Part shown: positions 32,887 to 38,300 of the stretch, in pieces
How positions within the stretch are numbered: the stretch's first letter is position 1
How the letters are laid out: the number at the start of each line of letters is the position of its first letter
Program-made: the position numbers and the translations under genes
The notes under the pieces: generated by a model
What the model saw: the letters and a program-made list of their open reading frames with translations, nothing else
Database searches by the model: none
Told to the model about the DNA's origin: nothing
NCBI GenBank assembly: GCA_003671025.1
Contig: QWPW01000029.1
Coordinates: 1 to 38,300 of the forward strand
Origin: Planctomycetota bacterium
GTDB lineage: Bacteria > Planctomycetota > Phycisphaerae > Phycisphaerales > SM1A02
Length of the DNA stretch: 38,300 nt
Direction of reading: 5' to 3'

Positions 32887-32957
32887 CGCGGCTTAGAGCG
32901 AGAGCGCAAGGGCGAACGATGATCGCCGCCTGATTGATTTAGAGAGAGCACAAACAA

Positions 32958-34617: not shown

Positions 34618-35212
34618 CCACGATGAAATCCGCCGTCGCGCGGTAGCGCTCAGCCACGCGGGCGAAGGTTGGATCCGCGACGGTGTGAAAGAAGTGCTCG
34701 ACGTACTCCATGCTCCAACCGCGTTCACCAGCGAGTTCGCGCGCCTGCGCCCGCTGCCAACGCACCGCTTGCGCCGACTGCACAAACACCGCGATGTCGA
34801 TGTACGCGCGAGGAATCGCATGCAGTGCGTGCAACCCTTCGCACACGATCAGGTGCGCACTCTCGATGCGTTGCTCGCCTACGCGACTGTGTGAGTCGAA
34901 GCTCCAGCGCGGAATGAGCGTCGACGCTCCGCTCGCGAGCGATGCAAGATCGCGCGCTAATCGCGGCAAATCGGATGATTCGGGCACGTCGCGCAAAGGC
35001 TCTGGCGTGAGGTCGTAGTCGGGCAAGTAGTGATCGGTACTCACGACCAGCGGCGAGAGCTTGCGCGCGAGCGTCGACTTTCCCGCGGCGACGGCACCGG
35101 TCACTCCGATGACGACGCGACTTTCGCGCGCGCGTGCCGCGGCCAAGATCGTGGCCACCGCGTCTCTCCACGCAACAACAATCGGACTGCGATGAGGCGT
35201 GGGTTGGTTCAC
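34598..35212 (-). CDS. Uridine kinase-like P-loop kinase
   Basis: 204 residues of the uridine kinase/phosphoribulokinase family. The Walker A motif is GVTGAVAAGKSTLARKL near residue 36; STDHYLPDYD near 58 matches the Asp-Asp-Tyr region of uridine kinases; the base-binding segment PRWSFDSHSR lies near 101, and LIVCEGLHAL near 119 is Walker B. RWQRAQAREL near 152 is the lid region. Context (thymidine kinase on one side, a nucleoside transporter on the other) supports uridine/cytidine phosphorylation, although pantothenate- or other small-molecule kinases of this family cannot be excluded. The first 29 codons are duplicated at 37999-38085. Confidence 0.85.
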   Translation of the reverse strand: MNQPTPHRSPIVVAWRDAVATILAAARARESRVVIGVTGAVAAGKSTLARKLSPLVVSTDHYLPDYDLTPEPLRDVPESSDLPRLARDLASLASGASTLIPRWSFDSHSRVGEQRIESAHLIVCEGLHALHAIPRAYIDIAVFVQSAQAVRWQRAQARELAGERGWSMEYVEHFFHTVADPTFARVAERYRATADFIVVNDDSE

Positions 35213-35288
35213 CCTCGCAGAGTAAGGCGCGGAAGTATCCTTGGAAACTGTGCGCGTTCACTCACGCATTCAGTCCGCGCGCGGGCGC
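35126..35288 (+). repeat. Direct repeat, left copy (163 bp)
   Basis: Identical to 37999-38161 except for T35188 versus C38061. It covers the first 29 codons of the uridine-kinase-like gene and the upstream region it shares with nupC. Identity stops abruptly at both ends; after a divergent stretch of about 32 bases it resumes over the first 21 bases of nupC. The copies flank the segment with glycosyltransferase and sulfotransferase genes. Confidence 0.97.
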
Positions 35289-35320
35289 GTCATTGCGCAC
35301 CCAACTGCGCGAGGAACTCC

Positions 35321-35380
35321 ATGCAACAACTCACTGGACTGTTCGGCGCCACCGCAAAGGCGACATCTTGGCATCACTGA
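35321..35380 (+). pseudogene. 5' stub of the nupC-type transporter gene
   Basis: MQQLTGLFGATAKATSWHH then TGA. The first 21 bases equal those of the real nupC start at 38197, and the next few codons are partly similar (CTGTTCGGCGCC versus CTGCTCGGCGTC) before the reading diverges. A GAGGAA site five bases upstream is kept. It is the leftover of nupC on the left side of the insertion and cannot make a transporter. Confidence 0.85.
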
Positions 35381-35401
35381 CAACGGCACCCCACGGAGTG
35401 C

Positions 35402-35631
35402 GCCAGCGATGTGAACGATGTCAAGTGCATGGACTTCGTGCACCACTGCGACGAGCGCCGTCGATCGCAGGTTGGCTGGCGATCGTTGACGAGTTCACGC
35501 GTGACTATGTCGCGTTCGACATGTTTCGCTCGATGACGTCCCTCGATGTCCTCGAAACTCCGGTCGGTGTGCTCAAGCCTCGCGGCGACGGTTCCCTGTG
35601 CGGCATGCGTGAGATCATGTGCTTGATGTGA
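35402..35631 (+). mobile_element. IS3-family transposase remnant (integrase core, frameshifted)
   Basis: In one frame NDVKCMDFV (35414-35440) resembles the NEVWSMDFV motif of IS3 OrfB. About 30 bases later, in another frame, LAIVDEFTRDYVAFDM (from about 35475) followed by RSMTSLDVLET matches the (L/V)xVVDEFTRExLAI..RS....VLE region. A further shift yields VPCAACVRS, like the VPxHxRSDNG block, without its catalytic Asp-Asn. Both ends of the element, orfA and the terminal inverted repeats are missing. It is therefore a degraded fragment of roughly 70-80 codons next to the left direct repeat. Confidence 0.7.
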
Positions 35632-35673
35632 ACAACCCTCGTCTCAGTGTGAGGGCATCGAGAGCGGGACAGG

Positions 35674-36639
35674 TCACCGCTCTTTCGCGTGCGGTGAGGG
35701 CCAACCGTTCCACCACTCACTTCTTTGACGCATCACGGCGCTGTAACTCGCCACGTACTCTTCGCGACCTCTCACCCGTCCGTAGAGTTCACGCGTCGCT
35801 GCGTGGAGCCACAGGAGCGTCTTGCACAGCGTGCTGTGAACTGGGCCGTAGTGCTTGTCATAGAAAGTGGCATTGCCGCGGGCCCGATTGAGCATGCGGG
35901 ATGGCGTTCGCCGTGCGCCACTTCCAGTGTCATGGAGCATACGAATCCTCGGATCGACCACAAGCGTTCCGCCCGCGTCAGCGATGCGCTTGCAAAGGTC
36001 AACTTCTTCCGCATACATGAAGAACCGTTGATCAAAACCGTCGAGAGCCCGCCAGACTTGGGCGTCAACCATCATGAACGCTCCGCTTAGCACCGGAACC
36101 GATTGAGGTTTGAGGCGCATCGGATCTGCGGCGCCGGGACGGAGTCTCGCGAGTCCAACCAGCGCCAGCAGCAAGGGCGTCATGCCGAGCATTGGTTGAA
36201 TTGAACCACCATCGATCTCGCCACTGGGCAGCACCGTGACCGCACCCCAAGCAGATGCGTCGGCATGCAATTTTGCGAGTGTGAGCAGCGCGCTCAGTTC
36301 ATCTTCCTGCGCGAACGCATCGGGATTGAGGAGGAGCAGCCGATGCCCGCGCGAGGCGGCGGCAAGCACGTTGTTTCCTCGAGCAAATCCGAGATTACCT
36401 TGATAGGGCAGAACTCGAACCTTGGGAAACTGTTCGCGCACGAACGCTTCGCTGCCGTCGTTTGAGCAATCGATAAACAGAAACTCAAAGTCAGCACCGC
36501 GCGCGGATGCCATCGCGCCACGCAAGCAGCGTCCGATGTAGTCGAGGCTCTTGTAGCCAACAACGAGCACGCTCACTTCAGGCAATGCCGCTGACACCGA
36601 GCCGCTGCTGAGTTCACTGTCCAAGCAGGAGCCTCGCAC
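35674..36639 (-). CDS. Family 2 glycosyltransferase (rhamnosyltransferase-like)
   Basis: Transfers a sugar from a nucleotide-sugar to a glycan acceptor, facing the cytoplasm; 321 residues. The GT-A fold shows VSVLVVGYKSLDYIGRCL near residue 22, FLFIDCSNDGSEAFVRE near 53, GNLGFARGNN near 80 (typical of WbbL/RfbF-like enzymes), LLLLNPDAF near 98 as the DxD-like site, and FDQRFFMYAEEVDLCKRI near 199. A helical C-terminus ends in WNGWPSPHAKER. It overlaps the end of the sulfotransferase gene by 26 bp, so the two form an operon. A GTG inside the frame would also give a complete domain. It lies between the two direct repeats, apparently acquired. Confidence 0.9.
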   Translation of the reverse strand: MRGSCLDSELSSGSVSAALPEVSVLVVGYKSLDYIGRCLRGAMASARGADFEFLFIDCSNDGSEAFVREQFPKVRVLPYQGNLGFARGNNVLAAASRGHRLLLLNPDAFAQEDELSALLTLAKLHADASAWGAVTVLPSGEIDGGSIQPMLGMTPLLLALVGLARLRPGAADPMRLKPQSVPVLSGAFMMVDAQVWRALDGFDQRFFMYAEEVDLCKRIADAGGTLVVDPRIRMLHDTGSGARRTPSRMLNRARGNATFYDKHYGPVHSTLCKTLLWLHAATRELYGRVRGREEYVASYSAVMRQRSEWWNGWPSPHAKER

Positions 36640-37675
36640 GCCGCGTGATGTACGCCGTCATGTTTCCGCTTCGCTTCGCGTTGATGAATGCGGCGCGGAC
36701 GAGTGCGGGAAGCGCACTCGCGTAGTAAGGCGCTGTGGACAAAAAACTTGCTCGCGGTGATGCGGATTCGTAACCCATGCGGCCGAGGGCTGCGCCACAG
36801 CAACGCTCAACCACAGCGATTTCCTGTGGCAGCATGGTCTTATGCCACCGATCCATCGCGCCGCGCACGAATCCGCCGACTTCCGCGTATTGCTCGTAGC
36901 TTGAGTTTCGAACAGGAACATTGGTCATGCCCTCGGGGCGTTCGAGTCCGAGCCAGTCGAAGACTTCGCCAAGTTCGCTCTCTGGTTGATCACAGAGGGA
37001 TTCGTAGCGTTGAAGTCGCACTCGCGACGGACCGAATCGGCCGAGCGCTTGCGATGCCGCTTGCGCAGCTGCCACCCAGAGAAGTGAAATCGTGACCGGG
37101 TGATAGGAGCGACGCGCGCGGGAGTGATCAGCCGCAAGTGTTTCAGCGTGACCAGGGTCATTTGTGAAGTCAAACCCGCCCTGGTTTTTCCAATCGCGGT
37201 AGCTGGCGACAACGGCGCGCGGATCGCGGAGCATGAAGAGTACTTTCGCATCGGGAAAGCGCGTAAGCATTTCGGTGAGGCGAAAGACATGCCGTGGCGT
37301 CTTCTCTCCCCACACGGTGGCATTCGTGCGCGCACCCCATTCACGACAAAATGCCTCGAAGTACTCATCCGCACCGCCGCCGAGAAGCTCGGCGTGAGAA
37401 CGCAAAGATTCGCGCTGCATCCATCCTTGATTGGGATCACCTTCGTGACCAAATGGCCGATGCGAGAGCCCAAGAAAGTAGTCTTCGATCCGCTCACGAC
37501 GCGCATCGTCTAGCGGACTCTTGATGCCGACTGCGCCGAGTGCGACACGCATGTCGTCGAAGTAGTGTGTCTCGCCCGCGATCGATACTCGGGCGTTCTT
37601 CTCGAGAGCCGATTGCAGCAAACTTGTTCCGCTTCGGCTCGTTCCGCAGATGAAGATGGGTCCAGTGAAAGTCAT
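36614..37675 (-). CDS. PAPS-dependent sulfotransferase
   Basis: 353 residues; would move sulfate from PAPS to a carbohydrate or other hydroxyl group. The 5'-phosphosulfate loop FICGTSRSGTSLLQSAL is at residues 7-23, and LFMLRDPRAVVASYRDW near 150 is the 3'-phosphate-binding motif with Arg and Ser. WGEKTPRHV near 126 and LQRYESLCDQPESELGEVF near 225 are further family blocks. The ATG at 37675 (MTFTGPIFICG) is chosen, since upstream residues are not family-like. It is the first gene of a two-gene operon with the glycosyltransferase. No PAPS synthesis genes are in the window. Confidence 0.9.
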   Translation of the reverse strand: MTFTGPIFICGTSRSGTSLLQSALEKNARVSIAGETHYFDDMRVALGAVGIKSPLDDARRERIEDYFLGLSHRPFGHEGDPNQGWMQRESLRSHAELLGGGADEYFEAFCREWGARTNATVWGEKTPRHVFRLTEMLTRFPDAKVLFMLRDPRAVVASYRDWKNQGGFDFTNDPGHAETLAADHSRARRSYHPVTISLLWVAAAQAASQALGRFGPSRVRLQRYESLCDQPESELGEVFDWLGLERPEGMTNVPVRNSSYEQYAEVGGFVRGAMDRWHKTMLPQEIAVVERCCGAALGRMGYESASPRASFLSTAPYYASALPALVRAAFINAKRSGNMTAYITRRARLLLGQ

Positions 37676-37998
37676 AGTGCTGAAGGACGGGTGCTCGAAA
37701 TGAAAACAAATCAACTCGCTGATTTGCTGAAGAACGATTTCCTCACTTGTAGTGTATTGCAAGTCATCACGTCAGCCGCCGCTGACTTCCATCATCAACG
37801 ATCGGATATCGGAATTTCGTGCTGCCCCTGTTTACATCTCATGAGCAGTCGTCGCGCATCGTGAATTAAAAGACGACGCCCCGGTTAGGCGTCCTCTTGT
37901 TGATCTTGTCATGCGCCGACTTCGAGTCGCTCCACAACAAGTCGAATGCGCACAACCGGCGCCAGCTTGATGATCGGGACTCACCACCACCGATGAGA
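37676..37998. other. 323-bp region between sulfotransferase and right direct repeat
   Basis: It should contain the promoter of the sulfotransferase/glycosyltransferase operon. No coding frame or transposase similarity is recognised. One hairpin at 37875-37893 is described separately. Confidence 0.45.
37868..37893 (-). terminator. Weak terminator candidate
   Basis: GACGCC (37875-37880) pairs with GGCGTC (37888-37893). On the minus strand the stem is followed by GTCTTTTA. The 6-bp stem is short. It lies just past the uridine-kinase-like stub and could stop transcripts started from the duplicated promoter. Confidence 0.35.
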
Positions 37999-38085
37999 GC
38001 GCGCGCGTGCCGCGGCCAAGATCGTGGCCACCGCGTCTCTCCACGCAACAACAATCGGACCGCGATGAGGCGTGGGTTGGTTCAC
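37999..38085 (-). pseudogene. 5' stub of the uridine-kinase-like gene
   Basis: The duplicated first 29 codons (MNQPTPHRGPIVVAWRDAVA...) of the gene at 34598-35212, with Ser9 changed to Gly by the single mismatch. Similarity ends at 37999, before the Walker A motif, so no kinase can be made. Confidence 0.9.
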
Positions 38086-38161
38086 CCTCGCAGAGTAAGG
38101 CGCGGAAGTATCCTTGGAAACTGTGCGCGTTCACTCACGCATTCAGTCCGCGCGCGGGCGC
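37999..38161 (+). repeat. Direct repeat, right copy (163 bp)
   Basis: Second copy of 35126-35288, offset 2873 bp, one mismatch (C38061). It supplies the upstream region of the intact nupC start, followed by AAGGAA six bases before the ATG at 38197. Confidence 0.97.
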
Positions 38162-38196
38162 CACGCTGCACAAAGCAGGATGCACAAGGAACCTTC

Positions 38197-38300
38197 ATGC
38201 AACAACTCACTGGACTGCTCGGCGTCGCCGCGATTCTACTGATCGGCTTCGCACTCTCCAAGCATCGTCGCCACATCAACTATCGCACGCTGGCCACTGG
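38197..38300 (+). CDS. nupC: NupC-type concentrative nucleoside transporter (5' end only)
   Basis: Only 34 codons are in the window: a hydrophobic segment (GLLGVAAILLIGFAL) followed by SKHRRHINYRTL, which is the conserved start of CNT/NupC transporters (first helix, then SxNRRxINWR-like). AAGGAA lies six bases before the ATG. It diverges from the uridine-kinase-like gene in the ancestral arrangement. Family assignment rests on this short stretch plus the nucleoside-kinase context. Confidence 0.75.
   Translation, partial: MQQLTGLLGVAAILLIGFALSKHRRHINYRTLAT

Follow-up and report, generated by a model that had tools for sequence, protein, structure and literature searches.

The window analyzed here (38,300 bp) is the complete contig C22 of a 3.25-Mb draft genome in 68 contigs, and carries a glycosyltransferase gene (GT) and a sulfotransferase gene (ST) between udk and nupC, bracketed by a long direct repeat. 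How did these two genes come to lie at this junction, and why is the junction copied on either side of them?

The direct repeat and the junction that it copies

The left copy of the repeat (35126 through 35288, + strand) covers the 5′ end of udk and the shared upstream region; the right copy (37999 through 38161, + strand) holds a 29-codon udk stub (37999 through 38085) and the upstream region of nupC. As the initial annotation had reported, the copies differ at one of 163 positions (35188 T versus 38061 C) and enclose ∼2.7 kb; their spacing is 2,873 nt, and the exactly identical stretches inside them measure 62 and 100 nt. Every one of the 102 exact 31-mers that recur on the + strand of the window does so at this spacing. 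The log10 of the number of such repeats expected by chance is about −84, and the repeat is not due to chance. With the repeat as a DNA query, no match was found in the other 15 genomes of the genus, and a 31-base repeat pattern found no exact match in viral contigs.

Both neighbors of the insert are intact, in agreement with the earlier claim. The uridine kinase-like gene udk (34598 through 35212, − strand; PF00485, E = 4e-17; NCBIfam uridine kinase models match below their cut-offs) is whole in the window, and its first 29 codons lie inside the left copy. On the other side, nupC starts at 38197 (+ strand; PF01773), is cut by the contig end at 38300, and resumes on contig C39, where the gene is complete at 431 aa. 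The tdk gene of the window was assigned by PF00265. An Rfam search of 33500 through 38300 returned tRNA only, and an imperfect inverted repeat with two 35-nt arms (71% complementarity) lies at 32935 through 33006.

Likeness between the two sides extends past the 163 bp. Directly after the left copy, positions 35289 through 35356 (+ strand) hold a diverged leader and the first 12 codons of nupC (a stub with its ATG at 35321). When 69 nt of this continuation (to 35357) are aligned with the 71 nt facing them, 54 columns match, 11 mismatch, and 10 are gapped; in the core, 162 of 163 positions are identical (Fisher p = 4.9e-6 for the contrast). Past codon 12, the left copy showed no trace of nupC (422 of 500 shuffles equalled the local alignment score). 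At the edge of the right copy, beyond a 67-nt deletion, a 28-nt piece (37971 through 37998, − strand) matches udk nt 155 through 182 at 23 of 28 positions. Its score was reached in 1 of 1,000 shuffles under strict scoring and in 2 and 251 of 1,000 under two other schemes; the following 140 nt of udk gave a score this high with 15 window pieces (itself among them), and the whole remaining udk did so with 35 of 1,257 other window pieces. We assign this piece with moderate confidence as a further udk remnant. Because the diverged nupC piece and, less surely, the udk piece lie outside the core, the duplication was probably once longer and has decayed at both ends; the 163 bp originally given as the duplicated length holds for a near-identical core but probably not for the full extent. 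The identity of the core suggests that it was made alike again later, most simply by gene conversion.

A search for NupC covered 61 genomes, this one plus 60 relatives, and gave matches in 19, of which 18 were relatives. The locus was compared in 16 of these 18 (G049 and G053 were left out), with eight queries mapped on the regions. Thirteen of the 16 yielded both genes: 11 members of the same genus, G031 (same family), and G058 (same order). In these, udk and nupC are divergent, with aligned ends 58 to 200 bp apart, and no GT or ST match lies between them in any of the 13. In G032, G035, and G038, nupC was found without a udk match, and the search for nupC gave no match in genus members G007, G009, G010, and G015. 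The unoccupied locus that had been proposed as a check is therefore present in all 13 relatives having both genes, and because udk and nupC adjoin there without the insert, the insertion is, on this comparison, the derived state.

Contents of the insert

Most of the contents first listed for the insert are confirmed, namely a nupC stub, a glycosyltransferase, a sulfotransferase, and a kinase stub. The IS3 remnant, also listed, stands in part: a decayed, frameshifted transposase-like fragment is present at 35411 through 35631 (+ strand), but its match to the rve family (PF00665; E = 2.5e-4) stays below the cut-off (21.7 bits versus 32.6) and was obtained only with a query peptide that combined two frames; a peptide from one frame alone gave no match. 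Its identification as IS3 is weak. IS3 target duplications are short, and IS transposition was rejected as the origin of the repeat; at 163 bp the repeat is, as had been noted, far longer than such a duplication, and the transposase-like fragment lies inside the insert.

The GT gene (35674 through 36639, − strand) is an open frame of 321 aa assigned to the GT2 family (PF13641, E = 5.4e-11; also PF00535). The ST gene (36614 through 37675, − strand) encodes 353 aa from a conserved ATG; its start is probably at 37675, not 37762, because of the alignment with three relatives. ST scores 92.5 bits against Sulfotransfer_3 (PF13469, E = 6e-26; cut-off 27), a profile of PAPS-type sulfotransferases. Conserved blocks common to the four aligned ST sequences include CGTSRSGTS and RDPRAVVASYRDW, and such blocks presumably bind the sulfate donor PAPS. 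The curated models of NCBIfam match GT and ST only far under their cut-offs. The comparison of composition proposed in the initial annotation gave a weak signal in codon use (relative to 40 mechanically chosen reference ORFs, GT scores 1.8 SD and ST 1.2 SD under the mean), and the GC content of both genes is like that of the genome.

Between ST and the right repeat lies a terminator-like hairpin (37875 through 37893, − strand), one of six such sites in the region, where 3.5 are expected in shuffles; this predicted hairpin would stand between the ST-GT pair and the duplicated upstream region of udk. A stretch of 33 nt (37938 through 37970, − strand) is similar to the tsf 3′ end, at 26 of 33 positions for G006 and 25 of 31 for G012. 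Together, ST and GT most likely modify a surface glycan, a role that we infer from the locus in relatives.

Source of the ST-GT pair

Searches of 101 genomes gave any match (E = 1e-3) to ST in 47 and any match to GT in 73. The ST relatives at 69 to 74% identity are in genus members G001, G003, G005, G006, and G012 (two are partial, at contig ends), and the full-length GTs of G001, G003, G006, G011, and G012 are 57 to 68% identical to the window GT. No donor with an ST above ∼74% identity was found among the 101 genomes searched. ST relatives on four plasmids share 23 to 25% identity, and phages gave no ST match at E = 1e-5. At the DNA level, matches in relatives are confined to GT-ST (35840 through 37679).

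In G001, G006, and G012 the order is tsf, ST, GT, directly adjoining, within the rpsB-tsf-ST-GT glycan locus of the genus. The window keeps this order of ST and GT, with tsf-like sequence ahead of ST; unlike the genus locus, the pair lies here between udk and nupC and is preceded by only the 33 tsf-like nucleotides. G005 has ST after tsf, up to a contig end, and G003 has ST and GT as neighbors on one contig and tsf with a piece of ST on another. GT of G001 is followed by a flippase-like gene (under the model cut-off) and then by rmlB and rmlA. In G002 (L088, 749 through 4085), GT and a flippase-like gene are followed by a gene of 302 aa and another of 299 aa distantly resembling ST (25%).

When nine tsf ends were compared with the 33-nt stretch, its score was reached in 0 of 500 shuffles for G006, G012, and G011 and in 1 to 22 of 500 for the others (own tsf, 3). 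Among 1,274 window pieces, only two that overlap the stretch itself match its score. Under looser scoring the match does not stand out, being equalled in 807 (G012) and 473 (G006) of 1,000 shuffles.

A core-gene tree (seven concatenated genes, 13 genomes, quick supports; four rows cover less than half of the columns) groups this genome with G008 and G014 (SH-aLRT 93). These two species carry another GT type, and the ST search gave no match in them or in G009, G013, and G015. A GT tree made by the same quick method puts the gene of the window in a clade with G001, G002, G003, G006, and G012 (support 95), with G001 as its neighbor (88); in the ST tree this genome stands, without resolved branching, beside G001 and G003. 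Contig C46 ends in a GT fragment, beside the genome's own rmlB, that groups with G008, G009, G013, G014, and G015 (97, from just 59 residues). The native interval from tsf to rmlB is split by contig breaks (L093, 9927 through 10093, at the end of C46; L097, 1 through 162, at the start of C38). When the genome itself was searched with the terminal DNA of C46 and C38, each end matched only itself, and a search for the rest of the native-type GT did not find it. Because the own rml locus ends in a GT fragment of a different type, the pair appears to have been added at another place, and the suggestion that surface-glycan genes are swapped is not supported. The ST-GT pair was most likely acquired from another lineage of the genus, at a new site.

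Possible routes of insertion

The best explanation, in which our confidence is about evenly balanced with our doubt, is that a fragment of a related species' glycan locus was inserted between udk and nupC by single-crossover integration of a circle. The fragment would have comprised the 3′ end of tsf, ST, and GT from the surface-glycan locus of that species. Illegitimate ends would have linked it to a copied udk-nupC junction, the product would have closed into a circle, and one RecA-type crossover would have integrated this circle, leaving a junction copy on each side. These copies would have decayed, and more recent gene conversion may have re-equalized the 163-bp core. We favor a single crossover because integration of such a circle leaves the foreign DNA flanked on either side by a duplicated piece of the host. 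The features seen here are those of Campbell-type integration: direct repeats homologous to the host flank foreign DNA, the neighbors are intact, and the junction is uninterrupted in relatives. The recombination-based insertion first suggested for the locus fits this picture.

Single crossovers of recircularized DNA in E. coli, as described in one report (PMC3240628), duplicated 109 to 950 bp in 14 sequenced clones and gave a duplication-diagnostic PCR product in 56 of 60 clones. As described there, these integrations share with the udk-nupC locus a duplicated host piece flanking foreign DNA and no deletion of a host gene opposite; the present case differs in its natural origin, its age, and its decay around a near-identical core, and its circle is presumed. 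Homology-facilitated illegitimate recombination, in the accounts considered, combines one homologous and one illegitimate joint and has been proposed for gene additions in T6SS clusters of Vibrio cholerae (PMC3240628, PMC5361080); it is described as generally deleting host DNA at the illegitimate side (PMC3240628). Here, in contrast, no host DNA is lost (udk and nupC are complete) and homology is present on both sides.

Two other readings change the order or the origin of events. Rather unlikely is a stepwise history, in which a tandem duplication of the udk-nupC junction (perhaps with more of nupC) was followed by an IS3-type element entering the spare copy and later by the glycan genes; a decayed transposase-like fragment after the nupC stub, and decay of several ages side by side, would suit it, but it requires three events, the left copy is without nupC trace after codon 12, and the IS identification is weak. 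We consider it unlikely that an ancestor's own ST-GT pair moved from the tsf/rml locus to udk-nupC. A search of the assembly did turn up just one copy each of ST and of this GT, the divergence of ST-GT from its relatives resembles that of nupC, and the native tsf-rmlB interval is interrupted between C38 and C46. Against such a move, the GT fragment on the rml side is of the other type, and the tsf remnant reaches a score of 38 with G006 and G012, compared with 28 for the own tsf. Because the core genes group this genome with species of the other GT type that lack ST matches, and because its rml locus holds a fragment of that type, transfer within the genus appears the better reading.

An assembly or binning artefact joining two strains or species is very unlikely. 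The draft is in 68 contigs with a contamination estimate of 2.41, and the window stops 139 bp past the right repeat in what looks like a graph branch: positions 38174 through 38300 are identical to positions 1 through 127 of contig C39 (L004), an exact 127-bp overlap that is probably an assembly-graph joint, since we take such overlaps at contig ends to be its mark. The identical stretches of the repeat (62 and 100 nt) are, however, below the apparent 127-base word, and an assembler would not produce the decay at both edges. The break was not read as a sign of a variant with the empty site, whose branch point, by our own reasoning with a 127-base word, would be expected at 38125 or 38189. The least probable reading of all is a site-specific integrative element or island with the 163-bp repeats as attachment sites: direct repeats do restore the 5′ end of a gene on one side, but a Pfam search of the insert ORFs (small ORFs only partly covered) revealed no integrase, and divergence is graded outside the core.

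The insertion is thus probably an old within-genus acquisition by a single crossover, ordinary in kind and unusually readable in detail. Recombination of one repeat with the other should be capable of deleting the cassette, which would return the locus to its plain state. It is quite improbable, if worth stating, that ST-GT is a cleanly lost cassette whose repeats are kept alike by ongoing recombination and whose presence or absence is polymorphic in populations; were it so, surface-glycan modification would vary among otherwise alike cells. With its likely source, landing site, and joints readable, the locus lets one trace, in nature, a mode of insertion that is familiar mostly from crosses made in the laboratory. 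It also illustrates how genes for surface glycans may be passed around a genus and settle at a second site without a host gene being broken or the native set replaced.
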